Positions 1,243-43,153 of a stretch of DNA of 43,356 bases are shown here, piece after piece (within the stretch, counting starts at the first letter, position 1; each line of letters opens with the position of its first letter). Location of the stretch: the IMG/VR virus record IMGVR_UViG_3300046007_007878, positions 1 to 43,356 of that record; one strand, written 5' to 3'. Position numbers and translations under genes: made by a program. The stretch is from a virus. The notes under the pieces are model-generated. The model was not told the DNA's origin and made no database searches. It worked only from the letters and a program-made list of their open reading frames with translations.

Positions 1243-3075
1243 ATGAACATTCTTCAGGGGATCGAGCACCTGCACACGCTCGACGGCGCCAGCTTTGTGG
1301 CGTTTGATGTGGAGACCACTGGACTCCAGCCGAAATTTGGTGGTCTGCGGCTGCTCCAGCTGGCCACCGTAGATCAAGCGCCCGTCGTATTGGATTGTTG
1401 GCAGTTCAGCGATGAGGACTGGATCACGCTGGAAAACTTTTTCACCGAGGAACGGACCTGGCTGGCGCACAATGCGGTATTCGATCTGGGCTGGCTCCAG
1501 GAGCATGAGATTTACCCGGAAGGCTTAGTATTTTGCTCTATGTTGGCTAGTCGTATTCTTACCAACGGTTTGCCTAACCAAAAACATGGACTTAAGCATG
1601 TAGTTAATGATTATTTAGGTTACGATATTTCTAAAGATGAGCAGAAAAGCGATTGGTCAGGAGATTTAACACTTAGTCAGTTAGAGTATGCTGCGACAGA
1701 TGTTGTTGTTTTGACTGAGCTATATGAGGTGCTAGAACAACATATGGCTCAGTATAAGCCCAGCTTACAGCCGGCATGGCGATTAGAATGTAAAGCGTTA
1801 CCTGCAATGGCACAGTTGTGGCGAACAGGTTTACCATTCAATAAAAGCGCATTAGTTAAACTGATTGAGGAGCTTGACATTGAAAACTTTGAAATAGGAG
1901 AACAGTTTATTGAAGATTTTGATGCGGCTCTTCCTCCTTTGGCTAAATTAGCCAGAAACGAACAGGGTAAAATTTTATATCAAGTAAAGCCTGGGGCAAA
2001 GGGCGCAAAACCTGACAAACGTGTATTTAACCTTAATAGTCCCATTCAACTGTTAAACAAATTTACTGCCTTACTAGGTGCTGAACCTTTAGACCCAAAG
2101 ACCGGTAAAGCTAGTGCTAGTAAAGCAGCACTTCAGGAGTACGTTGGAGAACACAAAATAATTGCGGATTATTTGCGGTGGAAACGTGTAGAGAAGCGGC
2201 GGCAAATGGCGGAGACTTTGTTAAAGAATTTGTCGGATGACGGGTTTATTCGTGCCAGCTATCTGCAGATGGGGGCTGACACCGGCAGGATGAGTTGCAT
2301 GAGTCCCAACCTGCAACAAGTGCCGCGGGACGTGCGTTTTCGGGCTTGCGTGCAAGCACCAGCTGGTTGGCGACTGGTTGTGGCGGACTATGGGCAGATG
2401 GAGTTGCGGCTGGCCGCGGCAGAAGCTCAAGATCCTCTTATGACTCAGGTGTTCCAGCAGGGGAAAGACCTGCATACGATTACAGCGACGCAGATTTACG
2501 GGGTCAAGGAAGAAGATGTTACAAAAGAGCAGCGGCAAGTCAGTAAATCAGCCAACTTCGGATTGTTATACGGAAGCGGTGCAAAAGGACTCAGAAACTA
2601 TGCCGCAACAATGGGAATCCAGATGGATCTTGATGAGGCTACGGCGGTGCGGGAAAAGTTCCATGCTGCATATACAGGCATCTCCAAATGGCAGCAGCGA
2701 AATGCTCTCGCTGCTCATGCGGATTCGTACAACGCATCTATCCGCATACGCGAATCGGGCTTGCGGCGGATTTTATCGGGCGAGAACAATAAACTTACGA
2801 CCCGTTGCAACACCCCAATCCAGGGAGCTGGTGCCGCCGTCCTCAAACTTACGCTCGGCAAACTGTGGCCGTTCCTTAAAGCAGACGGAGAAGAGCGGGT
2901 GCGCTTGGCCGGCGTGGTGCATGACGAGATCATCCTGCTCGTAAAAGAAGAACACGCCGATACTTGGGCCGCTCAGCTCCAGGCAATCATGGAAGAGGCT
3001 GAGGCTAAGTGGCTTGGCGAAATTCCCCCGCTTGCCGAAGCTAAGGTCGGATTGAGCTGGGACCAGGCAAAATGA
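1243..3075 (+). CDS. DNA polymerase I (family A) with 3'-5' exonuclease
   Basis: The replicative polymerase, 610 residues, with a proofreading exonuclease (about 1-175) and a family A polymerase domain (about 190-610), but no 5'-nuclease domain. Exo I is FDVETTG with D22 and E24, Exo II has N77 and D81, and Exo III is YAATD with Y149 and D153. Polymerase motif A is VVADYGQMELR with D382; the usual serine after DY is glycine. Motif B has R431, K435, F439 and Y443 with YG; the residue matching E. coli F762 is the common Phe (F439). Motif C is HDE at 560-562. Bases from about 1515 to 2170 are far more AT-rich than either flank, suggesting a recombinant segment. Its stop overlaps the next start (ATGA). 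Confidence 0.96.
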   Translation: MNILQGIEHLHTLDGASFVAFDVETTGLQPKFGGLRLLQLATVDQAPVVLDCWQFSDEDWITLENFFTEERTWLAHNAVFDLGWLQEHEIYPEGLVFCSMLASRILTNGLPNQKHGLKHVVNDYLGYDISKDEQKSDWSGDLTLSQLEYAATDVVVLTELYEVLEQHMAQYKPSLQPAWRLECKALPAMAQLWRTGLPFNKSALVKLIEELDIENFEIGEQFIEDFDAALPPLAKLARNEQGKILYQVKPGAKGAKPDKRVFNLNSPIQLLNKFTALLGAEPLDPKTGKASASKAALQEYVGEHKIIADYLRWKRVEKRRQMAETLLKNLSDDGFIRASYLQMGADTGRMSCMSPNLQQVPRDVRFRACVQAPAGWRLVVADYGQMELRLAAAEAQDPLMTQVFQQGKDLHTITATQIYGVKEEDVTKEQRQVSKSANFGLLYGSGAKGLRNYAATMGIQMDLDEATAVREKFHAAYTGISKWQQRNALAAHADSYNASIRIRESGLRRILSGENNKLTTRCNTPIQGAGAAVLKLTLGKLWPFLKADGEERVRLAGVVHDEIILLVKEEHADTWAAQLQAIMEEAEAKWLGEIPPLAEAKVGLSWDQAK

Positions 3076-3956
3076 CGTTACGTATACTTGACTTGTTTTC
3101 CGGCATTGGCGGATTTAGTTATGCGGCTGAAAACATTGTTGGAGGTTTTGAAACAAAACAATTTGTAGAGATAGACGGCTTTTGCCAGAAAGTTCTGCGT
3201 AAACACTGGCCCAATGTCCCAATCCATTCCGATGTCTGCACCTTTACAGCTCCAGTTGGATCTTTCGACGTTATATGCGGAGGATTTCCCTGCCAAGACC
3301 TCAGTACAGCTGGAAAACAAGCCGGTCTTCAAGGCCATAGAAGTGGGCTGTTCTTTGAGATCATGCGTTTGGCTAGGGAAATTCAACCTAGATTTATCGT
3401 CATTGAAAACGTGGCAAACTTACGGTCTCACTCCGACGGGGAAACTTTCCAAGAAGTGCTCTGGGAAATTGCCTCGGCAGGGTTTAATGCTGAGTGGGCA
3501 TGTATACCAGCTGCAGATGTGGGAGCCTGCCACAAACGAGATCGCATATGGATTGTTGCCTACTCCGACAGCGTGTATAGCAAACGATGGGGAAACTCCC
3601 CGAACGTGGCTGGAACGCAGGGAGCGTGTGAAGACAACAACAAAAAATGGGAACGGAATGGGAATGCCTCTAACTATTGCGGCTCAGTTACTGCCGACAC
3701 CAACAACGCGGGATTGGAAAGATGGCAGTCAATACAGTGCCAGCAAAGCTCCAGCAAATGGCCTACTTGGCAGGGAGATTCACGTTTTATGCTCTTCAAT
3801 GACTGGCGATCCTTTATATCTAAACCCGTCATTCGTCGAGGAGATGATGGGTTTTCCGGTCGGGTGGACCGCTTAAAGGCTCTTGGTAACGCTGTCGTTC
3901 CTCATGTAGCCGCAGTAGCTTTGAACCGGGTCAAGCATTTAGCGCAAGATGTTTGA
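3072..3956 (+). CDS. DNA (cytosine-5) methyltransferase
   Basis: A 294-residue C5-methyltransferase that transfers a methyl group from S-adenosylmethionine to cytosine, probably protecting phage DNA from host restriction or altering late expression. Motif I is DLFSGIGG (7-14), motif IV is GGFPCQDLS with catalytic C74, motif VI is ENV with E112, motif VIII includes KRDRIWIV (155-162), and motif X is ALGNAVVP near the C-terminus. The target-recognition region (about 168-250) is short and unusually rich in Asn, Ser and Trp. The same DNA encodes a second long reading frame (3214-3876), which may explain that composition. No cognate endonuclease lies nearby, so it looks like an orphan enzyme. Target sequence unknown. 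Confidence 0.95.
   Translation: MTLRILDLFSGIGGFSYAAENIVGGFETKQFVEIDGFCQKVLRKHWPNVPIHSDVCTFTAPVGSFDVICGGFPCQDLSTAGKQAGLQGHRSGLFFEIMRLAREIQPRFIVIENVANLRSHSDGETFQEVLWEIASAGFNAEWACIPAADVGACHKRDRIWIVAYSDSVYSKRWGNSPNVAGTQGACEDNNKKWERNGNASNYCGSVTADTNNAGLERWQSIQCQQSSSKWPTWQGDSRFMLFNDWRSFISKPVIRRGDDGFSGRVDRLKALGNAVVPHVAAVALNRVKHLAQDV
3214..3876 (+). CDS. Overprinted protein nested in the +1 frame of the methyltransferase gene
   Basis: A 220-codon frame with no stop lies wholly inside the methyltransferase gene, one base out of phase. Its product looks like a real family I recall from genes next to phage and bacterial dcm: DFPAKTS (24-30), LPRQGLMLSGHVYQL (86-100), two copies of LLPTPT (114-119 and 159-164), TRDWKDG, and LNPSFVEEMMGFPVGWT (203-219) at the end. 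The motifs coincide with methyltransferase motifs in the other frame: GFPCQDLS, RIWIVAYSDS and DDGFSGRVD. Between those anchors the nested frame stays protein-like while the methyltransferase frame is low in complexity. The ATG at 3214 has no clear ribosome site, so the start is uncertain. Function unknown; an over-annotated shadow frame is the main alternative. Confidence 0.6.
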   Translation: MSQSIPMSAPLQLQLDLSTLYAEDFPAKTSVQLENKPVFKAIEVGCSLRSCVWLGKFNLDLSSLKTWQTYGLTPTGKLSKKCSGKLPRQGLMLSGHVYQLQMWEPATNEIAYGLLPTPTACIANDGETPRTWLERRERVKTTTKNGNGMGMPLTIAAQLLPTPTTRDWKDGSQYSASKAPANGLLGREIHVLCSSMTGDPLYLNPSFVEEMMGFPVGWTA

Positions 3957-19888: not shown

Positions 19889-20154
19889 GTCACCGCAAAT
19901 GCCCAGTTACTCTCGCGGAGCAGCAAGATGTCCCCATCGTACTCGGGTCGGGCAATACGACGACCCCAACCCAACAGGTCTCGGACAACAAGACGCTTAG
20001 AGGCGGTGTACCAGTCGGGGTTAAACGGGGGGGTGGCAATGTCAAGGCGTGCCAGCACTGTGTAAACCAAATGGATGCAGTCGATTTCGTCGCCGCTACC
20101 ATCCGCGCCAAGGCGGTACGGGCGCCCGATTAGATCACTGCAATCTGATGCCAC
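19774..20154 (-). CDS. NlpC/P60-like tail tip peptidase
   Basis: A 126-residue protein. CSDLIGRPYRLGADGSG and EIDCIHLVYTVL place the catalytic-type cysteine of NlpC/P60 proteins at C26, within DCIHLV. A GDILLL strand and a late His in APPHVFIS (about residue 109) could complete the site. Lambda K and similar proteins occupy the same place, between the L-like and J-like genes, and are thought to cut peptidoglycan or process the tail. The usual catalytic histidine context (HVGIY) is not present in its standard form, so activity is uncertain. The 3' end overlaps the J-like gene by 115 bases. Confidence 0.75.
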   Translation of the reverse strand: MASDCSDLIGRPYRLGADGSGDEIDCIHLVYTVLARLDIATPPFNPDWYTASKRLVVRDLLGWGRRIARPEYDGDILLLRESNWAFAVTWQTGILYINSYLGKVAWAPPHVFISPICFRMKSSSWN

Positions 20155-23762: not shown

Positions 23763-23788
23763 AAAAAGCCGCCGGGGTTAGCGGCGGC
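23763..23788 (-). terminator. Intrinsic terminator after the tail chaperone genes
   Basis: On the minus strand GCCGCC and GGCGGC form a stem (23768-23773 with 23783-23788) followed by TTTTT. The stem contains the stop codon of the T-like frame. It should reduce read-through from chaperone into tape measure. Confidence 0.7.
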
Positions 23789-34619: not shown

Positions 34620-34656
34620 GCACAGTAGAAGAAATTGCGAATGTGTCAGTAGGTTC

Positions 34657-37867: not shown

Positions 37868-38710
37868 TTAGGCCGAGACATGAATGGGATTTTCCAGGGC
37901 AGCGAAGTATTGCTCCACCCGAGTCATGAATGACTTTTCAGCCTGCTCCAGCTCGGCTTGGGTCATGTAGTGGATGTTTGGGTTGCCGCAGCGGCGGGCC
38001 AGCACGATGGCTGCTCCAGTGGGTTGGAGACCGGTGAGATGCTTGAGTCCTAGGCTGTAGGCGCCGCACTGGTCGATGTATGAATGGCCGGGTGGGAGGC
38101 GCTCCAGGCCGTCGTCGTCGAGTTTGGTCTTGCGGCCCACGCTGGTCTTCCAGTCCGCTAGTACCAGCTCGTTATTCTTGAGGCCCACCAGGGCGTCGCA
38201 GGTTCCAGCGAAGCCGGCGGGGTGGTGAATGGAAAATTCGCTGGCGAAAATTTCGGTGACGTTCTCGGCGATCCAGTCAGACAGGCTGCGGGCGTAGCCG
38301 GAGGCGCTCCAGCCAACGCGGGGGACGTTTGGTCTCACTCTTTTCAATGCCCATTGCGTGATTGGCGAGGGAATCCGAGCCAATCCACGCTCGTCCCAGC
38401 GGATGGCGTTGCGCTTGTTTGCAGTGGAACGTGCCAGCTGCTGTGAGGTTTTTAGTAGATACTCGGCCTGACTGTGGGCCATGTTGCCTCGGGTGGCGGC
38501 AACGTTGCGCTGGCAGCTTGCTTCTACTGGTCCCAGGCGGGCTTCCCAACGCTCCAGGCCGGTTTTGTCGCTTGTTTCCTTCAGGATGTGTGTAACACTA
38601 TGGTATACATTACCCTTGATGTCCCTGTAGACCCGGAAAGGGCCGCTGTTGTCTTGCTCCAGCTTCCACCTACGCAGTGATGCCAGCGTGTCTTGGGTGT
38701 TAGCTGCCAT
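37868..38710 (-). CDS. PD-(D/E)XK exonuclease (Cas4/RecB-like)
   Basis: A 280-residue nuclease. The active-site signature is visible: GFAGTCDALVGL gives the first Asp, ELVLADWKTS gives the D-x-K pair, and a later Q-CGAYSLGLKH segment matches the QxxxY motif of RecB-family enzymes. An early helix (TRGNMAHSQAEYLL) carries the conserved G-x-x-xH. It would resect double-stranded DNA for recombination and concatemer formation, working with the SSB-like protein encoded upstream on the same strand. An HNH gene separates the two. No iron-sulfur cysteine cluster is obvious, unlike Cas4. Confidence 0.85.
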   Translation of the reverse strand: MAANTQDTLASLRRWKLEQDNSGPFRVYRDIKGNVYHSVTHILKETSDKTGLERWEARLGPVEASCQRNVAATRGNMAHSQAEYLLKTSQQLARSTANKRNAIRWDERGLARIPSPITQWALKRVRPNVPRVGWSASGYARSLSDWIAENVTEIFASEFSIHHPAGFAGTCDALVGLKNNELVLADWKTSVGRKTKLDDDGLERLPPGHSYIDQCGAYSLGLKHLTGLQPTGAAIVLARRCGNPNIHYMTQAELEQAEKSFMTRVEQYFAALENPIHVSA

Positions 38711-38734: not shown

Positions 38735-39247
38735 CTAACAGGTACGTGCAAATTCGCCATTGAAAGCCAAGGCCGCTGTTTTGTACGCCATACGAGCTTC
38801 TTCGGCAGTTGTGTAAGTACCAAGCTCGTAACGAATGTTTTTATGCCATATTCTTGCGGTATAATTACCTGTTGGTGTAACTGAAACGCCTTTTATTCCA
38901 GATCTATTAGCTTTTGTCAAACCGCGATTGGCTTGATTTTGATAACAGCTAGCTAGACGCAAATTTGACCATGTATTATTTTGTTTATTACCGTCAATAT
39001 GATCTAGCTGCATATTTTTTGGATCTGTACCTGTCATCCAAACCCATATAAGCCTATGTATAGGATAAATAGAGTGGTTAATACTTACAATTATATAGCC
39101 GCGCTGATTTAAACAACCCGCTTTAGATCCAGCGGCAAGTTTACGAGAAGGCTTTACACGCCAGATAAGTTCGCCGGAAAGCGGGTTGTAGTCAAATAGT
39201 TGCCACAATTCTTCTGCAGTTGGGAGTGGCTTGTATGCTTTGGGCAT
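38735..39247 (-). CDS. HNH homing endonuclease with AP2-like DNA-binding domain
   Basis: A 170-residue nuclease. An N-terminal region (LFDYNPLSGELIWRVKPS, then GYIIVSINHSIYPIHRLIWV) leads into the HNH core QLDHIDGNKQNNTWSNLRLA (about 79-98), and the C-terminal 60 residues (SGIKGVSVTPTGNYTARIW, then YELGTYTTAEEARMAY) form an AP2-like DNA-binding domain. This is the classic free-standing phage homing endonuclease. Its DNA is clearly more AT-rich than both flanking genes, a sign of recent arrival. It lies between the SSB-like and exonuclease genes. Confidence 0.92.
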   Translation of the reverse strand: MPKAYKPLPTAEELWQLFDYNPLSGELIWRVKPSRKLAAGSKAGCLNQRGYIIVSINHSIYPIHRLIWVWMTGTDPKNMQLDHIDGNKQNNTWSNLRLASCYQNQANRGLTKANRSGIKGVSVTPTGNYTARIWHKNIRYELGTYTTAEEARMAYKTAALAFNGEFARTC

Positions 39248-40096: not shown

Positions 40097-42547
40097 GTGT
40101 CTCGTAAGACGCAAGAATTGCTGGCTTTTGTGCGCCAGCTGCCTGAAGGCATGGCGTATGCGCCGATTTACGTTGCTGGAAGCAAGCTCCAGTCCGGTAA
40201 GGAGTCAAAGGGCAAGGCGCCGTTGGAGCGCAGCCACCATCAGGTGCTGAATCCGGCTGATGTTGCTCTGCAGATTGAGCGGCGGCCTGAGGTGTTCCAG
40301 GCGGTGGGGGTTTTTACGGGGGCTCGCAGCGCGGGACTCGTGATTCTCGACGTGGACCGCAACCTTTCCAGGCTGCTGAAGAAGTGGGGCGAGACGCTGG
40401 AGGGGGCGCCCAAGGTCACCAGCACCAAGGCCAATGCGGCGAAGTATCTCTTTCGTGTTCCAGAGGCTCTGTGGGGCGATGTAAAGGGTTTTGGCCTGTC
40501 GGATACCGGGGCTGGTTATGAGGTCCTCTGGGGGCGCCAGGGGCTCCTCTACGGGGCTTATCCGGGCTCCAGTGATGGAAAGGCGCCGGCGGGTGAATAC
40601 GGCTTTGAGGGCGATCTGGAGGCCATTCCAGAGGCTCCAGCGTGGTTGCTGGCGGAGATGCGGGAGCACGCCGGCAAAGAGGTGGCTGATGGGGGCTTCA
40701 TCAAGAATCGGAAGGCGCTGGATTTCTCGGATCGAGATCCGACTGAGATTGCCGAGATTGTGCAGTCGGCGCTGAAAGTAATTCCAGGGCAGGGTGCCGG
40801 CAGCCGGGACCACTGGGTGAAGGTGGGGATGGCGATCCACAGCGAGCTGCCGACTGACCTAGGGCTAACGCTGTGGTCGGCCTGGTCTGCCGAAGATCCC
40901 GAATTTTCACAGGAATGGGCAGACAGCAACCCCTGTGAAGAGGTCTGGAAGAGTTTTCGCAAGGGGCCGGTGAGCCTTGGGACGCTGTTCTGGATGGCGG
41001 ACCAGCAGATGCCGGGCCGACTGTGGCTGTCGGAGGATCTGCGGAAGGTGGTGGCCGATGTTGAGGCCGATAACGTTACTCGGATCCGGCAGGTCACCCT
41101 TAATTACGCCGAAGTAATTAGTCGCGCCAAGGAAATTCAAGAGCTGGATAACCCGGCTGAAATGGCGCATCGTATGAACGCCTTGGCCTTAGAGGCTGGC
41201 TACCGCGATGCCGGCGCTCTTGAACGGCTACTAATCAGCCAGATTCAGTACGAGCAGCGTGATGACGACATGGAGATAGGCGCCCTGTTGGATAAGGAAG
41301 TGCAGTTGGACTACCTGATCCCTGATCTACTGCCAAAGCCGGGTGTTGTGATGATTCATGGCGCTGGTGGTGACGGTAAATCCATGACCGCCTGGACCAT
41401 TGCAAAACACGTTGCCCGCGGTATTCCTTTTTCAATTAGGGGTGCTGATGTTCCAGTTCAGCAAGGCAAAGTCCTGATCCTTAATGGCGATCAGTCTGAA
41501 GTTCAGGTCAAACAGCAGATGCAGGACTTGGAACTTGGCCATGGTGATCCGATTCGGGTTGTTATGGGCTGGGACCTGAACTGGTATCTGCGTTTTGTAA
41601 AACTCGTTGAGAAGCACCAGCCGGCTTTGGTGGTCATTGATTCGATCACCGGTTGCAGCCGGGGTTCGGCGTTCGATGAAAACCGGAAGGAGTTTGCTGG
41701 GCCGCTGTACTGGCTGGCTAACAACAATGGTCGCCTGTTCCCTGCCTGCACCATCCTCGTTGTCCACCACAGCAACAAGGCTGGAGGCTTCCGGGGCACC
41801 ACCGCCCTTAGGGATGCCGTGGATGAGGTCTGGAGCCTCCGCAAGCCCTCTGAGAAGGAGCTGGAGCGAGTGGGCTTCTCCAGCCGCCTAATCACCGTTG
41901 AGAAGAGCCGCGCAGGCCGTGGTGGCAGCAAACTGCTGCTCAAGATGCTCGAAGACCTGACCTTCGAGCTGAAGGACTACGTGGAGATGACCACGGAAAG
42001 CGCCACGCCGGCTTCCATCGTGGATCGGGTGCTCCAGCGGTTGCGGTCAGCCGCCAAGAGCGACGAGGGCCGTACACGGCAGGATTTGCACTCCGATCCG
42101 CTGTGCGGGGGAAGCGTGGTCGGCATCAAAAAGGCGCTCCAGCGGTTGGAAGCCCGCGGCTTGATCTTTAGTACAGAAGAACCAAGCTCCAGAAGGGCTG
42201 GTTCCAGCATCAAGCGGTACTTTGCTTTGCTCTCGCGTGATATGTGTGAGAGAGAGTGTCCCCCTATAGCAAAAACCAGTCCAGGACTGGAAAAATTAGG
42301 GGGACAAGGTACTGGGGTGTCCCCCTTAAATGCGGACCCGACACCTGCCCCTGGGACGCTTGACCAGCTTTCGCCATCCAGCGAAGTCGATTTAGGGGGA
42401 CACAAAAAAGGTTGTCCCCCTGAGACCGCCTGTATTGATGCGGATTCTGGACAGGGGGACACATTTTCTGTAACCCCCCAAGAGAGGAAGCGTTCCAAGG
42501 AGGAACTCAAGGCTCTTATGGATGCCGCAGTGAGGATGTGGGAATGA
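40097..42547 (+). CDS. Bifunctional primase-helicase (PrimPol plus RepA-like AAA ATPase)
   Basis: An 816-residue replication enzyme. The N-terminal PrimPol domain (about 1-200) has the catalytic LDVD motif with D85 and D87 and a later GYEVLWGRQGLLYGAYPGS segment. A PriCT-like helical domain follows (about 215-310; WVKVGMAIHSELP, WSAWSAEDPEFSQEW). The helicase core has Walker A GAGGDGKS (422-429) and Walker B ALVVIDS with D515. A winged-helix region (about 640-710; LHSDPLCGGSVVGIKKALQR) precedes a proline-rich linker whose DNA contains the TGTCCCCCT array. It would prime and unwind DNA at the fork, with the family A polymerase. The GTG start has AGGAG 9 bases upstream. Confidence 0.93.
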   Translation: MSRKTQELLAFVRQLPEGMAYAPIYVAGSKLQSGKESKGKAPLERSHHQVLNPADVALQIERRPEVFQAVGVFTGARSAGLVILDVDRNLSRLLKKWGETLEGAPKVTSTKANAAKYLFRVPEALWGDVKGFGLSDTGAGYEVLWGRQGLLYGAYPGSSDGKAPAGEYGFEGDLEAIPEAPAWLLAEMREHAGKEVADGGFIKNRKALDFSDRDPTEIAEIVQSALKVIPGQGAGSRDHWVKVGMAIHSELPTDLGLTLWSAWSAEDPEFSQEWADSNPCEEVWKSFRKGPVSLGTLFWMADQQMPGRLWLSEDLRKVVADVEADNVTRIRQVTLNYAEVISRAKEIQELDNPAEMAHRMNALALEAGYRDAGALERLLISQIQYEQRDDDMEIGALLDKEVQLDYLIPDLLPKPGVVMIHGAGGDGKSMTAWTIAKHVARGIPFSIRGADVPVQQGKVLILNGDQSEVQVKQQMQDLELGHGDPIRVVMGWDLNWYLRFVKLVEKHQPALVVIDSITGCSRGSAFDENRKEFAGPLYWLANNNGRLFPACTILVVHHSNKAGGFRGTTALRDAVDEVWSLRKPSEKELERVGFSSRLITVEKSRAGRGGSKLLLKMLEDLTFELKDYVEMTTESATPASIVDRVLQRLRSAAKSDEGRTRQDLHSDPLCGGSVVGIKKALQRLEARGLIFSTEEPSSRRAGSSIKRYFALLSRDMCERECPPIAKTSPGLEKLGGQGTGVSPLNADPTPAPGTLDQLSPSSEVDLGGHKKGCPPETACIDADSGQGDTFSVTPQERKRSKEELKALMDAAVRMWE
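42257..42461. repeat. Six alternating copies of TGTCCCCCT (iteron-like array)
   Basis: Exact 9-base copies lie at 42257-42265 (+), 42298-42306 (-), 42318-42326 (+), 42394-42402 (-), 42413-42421 (+) and 42453-42461 (-), strictly alternating in orientation. Two minus/plus pairs can fold as hairpins with 9-bp stems and loops of 11 and 10 bases. The copies fall in different reading frames (reading as CPP, SPL, GGQ, GGH, QGD), so the DNA and not the protein is being repeated. The array is inside the linker-coding 3' end of the primase-helicase gene. Confidence 0.9.
42276..42290. repeat. Perfect 15-bp palindrome flanked by A-runs within the array
   Basis: CCAGTCC-A-GGACTGG with AAAAA on both sides, placed between the first two TGTCCCCCT copies. 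A protein-binding site or hairpin within the same element is likely. Confidence 0.8.
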
Positions 42548-42831
42548 TGTACTACACAAAAGACGGGCAGCCCTCTTATGTGCCACAAACTGACGAACAA
42601 CGCTTCGCTGTTTGGGTGCAAAAAGTTAGCGATTGGCGCCTAGTTGTAGTTAAAGAAGTTGTAAAAGACAGATTCGGTAAACCGTGCAGAAATCGTTTGG
42701 GCCAAGTTTTATACAAAGAGGTAGAAAAGGTGGTGGGTACAGGCATAGCCGAACCCACCGACGAGGAGTTGGCCCACGCGTGCGCCAAACCATGTCGTTA
42801 CAGGAGGGCAGCTCGTGCATCACGCGCCTAA
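42544..42831 (+). CDS. Small hypothetical protein downstream of primase-helicase (95 aa)
   Basis: A 95-residue protein from ATG 42544 (overlapping the preceding stop as ATGA). YYTKDGQPSYVPQTDEQRFA, then WRLVVVKEVVKDRFGKPCRN and LGQVLYKEVEKVVGTG form a likely beta sheet; PTDEELAHACAKPCRYRR ends it. GAGG lies about 9 bases upstream. It overlaps the next gene by 17 bases. Base composition is more AT-rich than the primase gene. No family recognised. Confidence 0.55.
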   Translation: MMYYTKDGQPSYVPQTDEQRFAVWVQKVSDWRLVVVKEVVKDRFGKPCRNRLGQVLYKEVEKVVGTGIAEPTDEELAHACAKPCRYRRAARASRA

Positions 42832-43153
42832 CTTTTTCTTAGGGCTCATGCGGGCTGCCGCGTGGCTGATCTGGAGAGAACCCGTGGCTAAACCTGAACC
42901 GCCCCAGCCGAAGCGTCCCAGGAAGCCAACCCTGGGTTACACCGTCGGTGACATCCCCTTCGAACTGATGGCCGTGGTGCGCGTGCAGTGGTACCGAAGG
43001 GGCCGGGCATACGAGGTTGAGGAGTACCAGATCGAGGAGTGCCCTGATGCCCACGCGCAGTTCCACTACATCGTTGGGACGGCGCTTAAGCAGGGCGCTG
43101 ACGTCTGTGTGCTGACCCAGTACCAGCCGGAAGACTTAGGAGTCCCAGCGTGA
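42815..43153 (+). CDS. Hypothetical protein with short hydrophobic N-terminus (112 aa)
   Basis: A 112-residue protein from GTG 42815. A hydrophobic stretch (FFLGLMRAAAWLIW) is followed by a proline-rich basic linker (KPEPPQPKRPRKPTLG) and a compact domain (PFELMAVVRVQWYRRGRAYE, FHYIVGTALKQGADVCVLTQ). It might be a membrane-anchored or signal-bearing protein. The TGA overlaps the next GTG (GTGA). Function unknown. Confidence 0.5.
   Translation: MHHAPNFFLGLMRAAAWLIWREPVAKPEPPQPKRPRKPTLGYTVGDIPFELMAVVRVQWYRRGRAYEVEEYQIEECPDAHAQFHYIVGTALKQGADVCVLTQYQPEDLGVPA

Follow-up and report, generated by a model that had tools for sequence, protein, structure and literature searches.

An alternating 9-bp repeat array inside a phage primase-helicase gene: a candidate origin-recognition site that covaries with the encoded winged helix

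Introduction

Type-specific pairs of O protein and origin occur among the lambdoid phages, and lambda O is not a primase-helicase. The alpha protein of satellite phage P4 is a primase-helicase whose C-terminal winged helix binds short iterons. According to the published work cited here and below, lambda and Stx phages carry iterons inside the initiator gene O (PMC3349717, PMC7466680); those of lambda are 18 bp long and lie beside an AT-rich stretch (PMC3349717), and lambda is arrested when the cell contains additional copies of its origin (PMC4488673). In the PLE satellites, the RepA_N DNA-binding domain and the origin iterons covary, and relatives exchange them as modules, a likely selective force being Odn, an origin-directed nuclease of phage ICP1 (PMC8263062). 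The C-terminal winged helix of certain primase-helicases has been suggested to take part in origin recognition (PMC5862659). Here we describe an array of short repeats within a primase-helicase gene of the virus record IMGVR_UViG_3300046007_007878, all 43,356 bases of which were analysed and are referred to as the window. The gene lies on the plus strand at 40097..42547, begins with GTG and encodes 816 amino acids, the C-terminal winged helix being followed by a tail that bears the array.

The array is interpreted as a set of iterons that form the origin-recognition site of the phage and are read by the very primase-helicase that encodes them, with a specificity that diversifies among relatives. 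A probability of roughly 0.78 is assigned to this interpretation, which rests on the layout of the array, on its conservation as DNA and on the covariation of the repeat with the winged helix of the same protein.

The repeat array in the window

Six exact copies of the 9-mer TGTCCCCCT lie within the last hundred codons of the gene, spread over 205 bases, three per strand and strictly alternating in orientation. Iterons 1, 3 and 5 are on the plus strand at 42257..42265, 42318..42326 and 42413..42421, and iterons 2, 4 and 6 on the minus strand at 42298..42306, 42394..42402 and 42453..42461, which gives start-to-start spacings of 41, 20, 76, 19 and 40. The pairs 1-6, 2-5 and 3-4 have a common midpoint, the dyad of the whole array, at 42359..42360. 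The six exact copies and their strict alternation over 205 bases had been reported in the original prediction, which was made from the sequence by itself, and the array proved to be unique in the record. No further exact copy of TGTCCCCCT exists in the 43,356 bases (0.26 expected), six copies were reached in none of 100 shuffles, and just two copies with one mismatch, at 19929 and 28796, were found outside the array.

The sites occupy codons 721-789. When codons 701-816 were recoded synonymously in 5000 random draws, no 9-mer rose above three copies; therefore, the array is not simply imposed by the peptide sequence. The earlier statement that the copies fall in different frames and encode different peptides was correct in that all three frames are used (offsets of copies 1-6: 0, 2, 1, 2, 0 and 1), but one frame serves copies 1 and 5, which both read CPP, and another serves copies 2 and 4, which both read LGG, so that there are four peptides and not six. 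Between iterons 1 and 2 lies an inner palindrome, CCAGTCCAGGACTGG (42276..42290), with arms CCAGTCC and GGACTGG around an A. It had been called a perfect 15-bp palindrome; the 7-bp arms are indeed present, but the single centre base is unpaired and the element is not a perfect even palindrome. An Rfam search of 41900-43000 and a search for the array among phages at the DNA level gave no match.

Relatives and conservation of the array

Six scans of viral contigs were pooled, yielding 303 sequences that matched by tblastn, the window included. Removal of 150 duplicates and of 14 genes open at the 3' end left 139 distinct intact genes. Seventeen of these lacked five TGTCC sites in the tail, which reduced the set to 122; a further 10 had an incomplete N-terminus, leaving 112, and 28 with at least 98.5% N-terminal identity and an identical 9-mer were removed to give 84 dereplicated genes, to which the counts below refer unless another sample is named. 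A scan of bacterial and archaeal genomes produced 19 pattern hits, with no relative among them.

At least five TGTCC sites are present in the tails of 122 of the 139 distinct intact genes, mostly in one conserved layout, and 27 types of consensus 9-mer occur among these 122, including TGTCCCCCT, TGTCCCACC, TGTCCCACT, TGTCCAACT, TGTCCAGCT, TGTCCCATT and TGTCCGTTT. The consensus words take in every TGTCC of the tail, so that a stray match is possible (1 of 7 in the window). At the 3' ends of the genes in 51 of the first 80 loci, the position and layout are constant and the word varies between phages, the copies within one phage's array changing in concert. The concert is imperfect: in the 122 genes, agreement of the copies with their consensus averages 0.76-0.87 at positions 6-9, six identical 9-mers are found in 18 of the 69 arrays of six-site layout, and the loosest arrays are those of the group with glycine at residue 678.

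Of the 84 genes, 69 retain the six-site layout, most commonly as 41-20-X-20-41 with X equal to 30 or 42, or as the 41-20-76-19-40 of the window. The distances between neighbouring sites follow a period of 10.3 bp (R 0.81; n=229, 41 distinct layouts), a helical phasing that is weaker when each distinct distance is counted once (R 0.39, p 0.03). The linker (residues 716-787) has a mean pairwise identity of 0.31, as against 0.78 for residues 1-620, and such poor conservation of the linker peptide argues that the DNA, rather than the peptide, has been preserved. Selection on the DNA had been claimed in the original prediction and is thus supported, while the outcome that it had named as contrary evidence, loss of the repeats in close relatives with the linker peptide conserved, turned out the other way round, with the layout kept and the linker diverged.

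Two further elements accompany the array. The pattern CCAGT-N5-ACTGG is present between the first two sites of 45 of the 84 genes, at one offset in 44 of them and independently of the repeat type; it is perhaps a second binding element, the site of a second factor. Directly 5' of site 1, at approximately 42233-42240, 62 genes have TCGCGT as the codons of a Ser-Arg pair, and 17 more have CTCGCG; because serine and arginine have six codons each, this uniformity probably reflects a further constraint at the DNA level.

Most of the 17 genes without five TGTCC sites belong to a distant clade (L170-L177, L260-L270). Several of its members have symmetric arrays in the same place built on other cores, for example TTTTCCGAA, TGTCAAAAG, TTTTGCCAA, TTTTGACAA and ATTTGTTCC, and the recognition helix of this clade differs too. 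In the S-CBS4 and MW202742 loci, no listed 8-mer or 9-mer exceeded two copies in the last 450 bases of the gene and the 200 that follow.

Covariation of the repeat with the winged helix

The Pfam domains of the primase-helicase are PriCT_2 (residues 223-301) and a RepA-like AAA_25 ATPase (residues 394-563). The protein also matches primase/helicase families of PHROGs, including a DNA primase family over residues 52-290, and no primase domain was found above the cut-off of the Pfam scan in residues 1-222. An AlphaFold2 model of the C-terminal region, predicted from 70 of the 93 listed distinct domain sequences, is a winged helix with a predicted local distance difference test score (pLDDT) of 74.7 and a predicted template modelling score (pTM) of 0.53. 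The domain comprises residues 638-712 (42008..42232, plus strand), and solved winged-helix proteins match its model in VIA-align with Z up to 10.8. A P4 structure is absent among the structural matches listed for the domain, an absence that excludes nothing. The putative recognition helix, helix 75-88 of the model, corresponds to residues 674-687 (42116..42157, plus strand) and contains the covarying residues 676, 678 and 681; the codon of residue 678 (42128-42130, plus strand) lies early in it.

Parsimony was used to trace the changes of the repeat and of each protein column on a residue 1-620 tree of the 84 genes. The mean co-change z with the repeat is about 0 for residues 1-600, 0.6-0.7 for residues 601-667, 1.47 for residues 668-687 and 2.25 for residues 688-715. 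Among columns up to 715, 15 of the top 20 fall within 668-712, a segment that holds 36 of the 415 variable columns, and many of the other top columns are in or near the modelled wing. A tree built from residues 1-620 biases the scores low in that part, and the neighbouring genes, being outside the tree, are a fairer control: the 22 flanking families of open reading frames (ORFs) within approximately 4 kb, some of them probably spurious antisense frames, had means from -0.20 to 0.72, with -0.20 for the gene directly downstream. The highest of these means belongs to ORF family 14, which lies approximately 4.6 kb after the gene start and was present at 41 loci.

Repeat positions 6-7 were also predicted by nearest neighbour over the 84 genes. 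With relatives of at least 85% N-terminal identity barred, residues 673-684 of the helix predicted these positions in 61% of the genes, as against 37% for residues 560-667 and 33% for residues 1-620; without the bar, the corresponding values were 80%, 73% and 58%. The original prediction had offered the gene's own protein as a possible binder. Because the repeats covary with its C-terminal winged helix, we strongly infer that the primase-helicase's own winged helix is the likely binder of the array.

In particular, residue 678 is associated with defined bases of the repeat. All 19 genes with lysine at 678 have C at position 6 and C or G at position 7, a combination found in one of the 65 non-lysine genes. 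Arginine is accompanied by A at position 7 in 31 of 35 genes (7 of 49 others have A), and glycine by T at position 6 in 14 of 14 (1 of 70 others). Pagel-type likelihood ratios for correlated evolution on the N-terminal tree are 54.6 for lysine, 61.1 for arginine and 43.7 for glycine; on two local trees that exclude the helix, they are 40.6 and 37.5 for lysine and 32.1 and 24.9 for arginine. Within-array agreement at position 7 averages 0.39 in genes with glycine at 678 as against 0.87 in those with lysine or arginine, and we read the blurred position as the probable loss of a base contact. Judged by these associations, residue 678 behaves like a base-reading residue.

How repeat and putative reader change together

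Two modes of change are seen in comparisons among close relatives. Loci L051 and L059, compared in bins of 100 bases, are mostly 92-99% identical upstream (85% in one bin and 84% immediately ahead of the drop), 50-77% identical across the winged helix and the array, and mostly 92-100% identical again in the approximately 1.2 kb after the gene (one bin 59%). This pattern is that of a whole-cassette exchange between near-identical phages, in which the winged helix and the array, some 0.5 kb, were replaced as a unit. For pairs whose residues 1-620 are 95% identical or more, winged-helix identity averages 0.975 where the word is shared (25 pairs) and 0.72 where it is not (49 pairs), the pairs having members in common.

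In the second mode, the residue appears to move and the array to follow. The clade of L224 and L226 has arginine at 678, but these two carry lysine there, the rest of their domain being like that of the clade. The sites of L224 mix TGTCCCCCT, TGTCCCTCT, TGTCCCACT and others, and the array looks half switched, possibly a switch in progress beside a changed recognition residue. Single contigs could be assembly chimeras.

Proposed mechanism

The C-terminal winged helix would bind each 9-mer, which consists of a TGTCC core and four variable bases. Six or more copies of the protein would assemble on one face of the DNA helix, with two-fold symmetry centred on 42,360. To start replication, the polypeptide's own primase and RepA-like helicase parts would be loaded at the array. 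Because reader and sites lie within approximately 0.5 kb of one gene, they would be inherited, mutated and recombined as one specificity cassette. Physical binding, assembly of the complex, helicase loading and origin firing are all inferred here from sequence comparison. In the 51 arrays with non-identical sites, mirror partners about the dyad agree at 2.96 of 4 variable positions as against 2.69 in shuffles (0 of 2000 reached this value; related phages are counted repeatedly), and a two-fold complex would explain this agreement. Partners in neighbouring hairpins of the same arrays did not agree above shuffles (2.71, p 0.39).

It is about an even chance that the alleles amount to replication types, in which winged helix and iterons make up a self-contained lock-and-key cassette under diversifying selection, switched by cassette exchange and by single substitutions at one recognition residue, with site-by-site repair of the array to follow. 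The driver could be competition at the origin, whether with co-infecting relatives, with satellites or decoys making use of the initiator, or through nucleases directed at the origin, as known from ICP1 and PLE.

Alternative explanations

Several observations weigh against an origin read by the winged helix. The domain model is of middling confidence at the scores given above. The association of glycine at 678 with T at position 6 is weak on the two local trees (likelihood ratios 11.0 and 10.5, p ~0.03), and threonine at 681 shows no significant association with A at position 6 there. Residues 601-667, which are outside the recognition helix and the wing, show the co-change of 0.6-0.7 that would be expected from linkage. 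The original prediction had looked for a change of GC skew near 42.3 kb, and no turn is found there, although skew alone does not decide where replication starts. Lastly, no AT-rich unwinding stretch is conserved at this place in the relatives. In the window, the 100 bases at 42620..42719, after the array, are 62% AT, which is the 98.7th percentile of the record's 100-base windows, and constitute a weak candidate for an unwinding element. Once detrended, the cumulative GC skew is lowest at 23,773 and highest at 34,653, both away from the array.

The co-change outside the helix, the evident reality of cassette exchange and the prediction of the repeat by residues 560-667, almost as good as that by the helix when close relatives are allowed, could all be produced by linkage, with recombination swapping neighbouring sequence so that winged helix and array travel together without recognition. 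Yet linkage would not make the copies of one array identical while the spacers differ, and the gene directly downstream does not co-change. Further, the lysine and arginine associations hold on local trees that exclude the helix, L224 and L226 combine a changed residue and changed sites inside their own background, and agreement at position 7 falls with glycine at 678; pure linkage is accordingly held to be very unlikely. If the winged helix does bind the sites, the binding might serve regulation instead of replication, as an operator, a roadblock for the downstream genes or a means of titrating the protein. The array does sit at the gene end, directly 5' of the next reading frame in the same direction, and the skew makes no turn. 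However, the predicted binder is a primase-helicase, an operator needs fewer than six phased symmetric sites, and iterons inside an initiator gene are an established form of origin (PMC3349717, PMC7466680), so that a purely regulatory role is unlikely. A binder other than the primase-helicase, from phage or host, is suggested by the independence of CCAGT-N5-ACTGG from the repeat type, which hints at a second factor; none of the 22 neighbour families within approximately 4 kb tracks the repeats as the winged helix does, and it seems highly improbable that such a protein reads the array.

A different object of recognition would be a large stem-loop or cruciform with the repeats as its arms, as proposed for plasmid pRN1. 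The stem-loops of pRN1 and BIP-1 lie 3' of comparable genes (PMC4234260), the array region has an RNA fold z of -5.3, and mirror partners agree above shuffles. That last test counts related phages repeatedly, however; there is agreement between same-strand sites as well, for which pairing gives no reason, local hairpin partners do no better than shuffles, and helical phasing and the residue-base association favour a reading of duplex DNA. The stem-loop is accordingly very unlikely to be the recognized object; a pRN1-like stem-loop may be a feature added to the two-fold complex. Finally, the original prediction had considered a dispersed repetitive extragenic palindromic (REP)-like element, and short alternating inverted repeats do resemble REP clusters. 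This idea was rejected: no exact copies occur elsewhere in the record, the 9-mer of each phage's own array was found outside the gene tail 6 times in total in the 690,244 bases of the 84 loci, where 5.8 were expected by chance, and place and layout are constant while the words differ.

Gene context

Matches of the primase-helicase to named phages and plasmids are partial and below 60% identity; that to S-CBS4 covers 26% of the length at 29% identity. Among the matches listed for the terminase, the best are to Vibrio phages at approximately 45% identity, and those listed for the DNA polymerase are at 25-28%. The assignment to cyanosiphoviruses in the original prediction is thus not established. 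Other genes recognized by Pfam encode DNA polymerase A (1243-3072), a C5 cytosine methylase (3072-3953), a PD-(D/E)XK nuclease (37871-38710) and an HNH endonuclease with an AP2-like part (38738-39247), the latter part scoring under the curated cut-off.

Significance

An initiator and an origin that change specificity together without loss of function are hard to observe in nature. Among the uncultured phage contigs studied here, a single locus comes with 27 consensus types of repeat, some phages are nearly identical except at the cassette, and in at least one case the array looks half switched. The finding predicts which residue reads which base, and is evidence that primase-helicases of this kind locate the origin through their C-terminal winged helix, as has been suggested (PMC5862659). 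It also points to origin specificity as a phage trait under diversifying pressure. If the alleles do represent replication types, so large a natural series would make it possible to deduce a code of origin recognition from sequence.

Comparison with known systems

A literature search, with most subscription papers outside its coverage, found no description of the array element, which is no proof of absence. Several known systems share part of the arrangement. P4 has another helicase type, and its sites lie outside the gene. The lambdoid O/ori system resembles the present locus in that an initiator's binding sites lie within its own gene (PMC3349717, PMC7466680), binding being predicted here; it differs in that the sites of the present array are 9 bp long, alternate about one dyad, lie in a primase-helicase gene and have no conserved AT-rich stretch beside them. 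A Pfam scan of the primase-helicase at E 0.001 gave no match to the lambda O family, and PriCT_2 and AAA_25 were found in its place; therefore, the protein is not an O protein, and only the arrangement of gene and sites resembles O/ori.

Primase-helicases of the PrimQH type have PriCT, a RepA-type ATPase and a C-terminal winged helix in the same order, a likeness in domain order, and intragenic iterons were not found in the passages cited (PMC5862659). ORF904 of pRN1 is likewise a multidomain replication protein with a winged helix and an origin adjoining the 3' end of its own gene, but that origin is a stem-loop after the gene, with no iterons according to its authors, and the helicase is of SF3 type, in contrast to the RepA-like one of the present protein (PMC4234260). 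In the PLE satellites there are two origin groups and three semi-palindromic repeats of approximately 30 bp in an intergenic origin (PMC8263062), whereas the present family has 27 consensus words, intragenic sites and single-residue associations. The locus is thus a variant of a known arrangement, and what is new is the set of 9-bp alternating sites about one dyad, their place in a primase-helicase gene, the long natural series of alleles and the associations of single residues with bases of the repeat.

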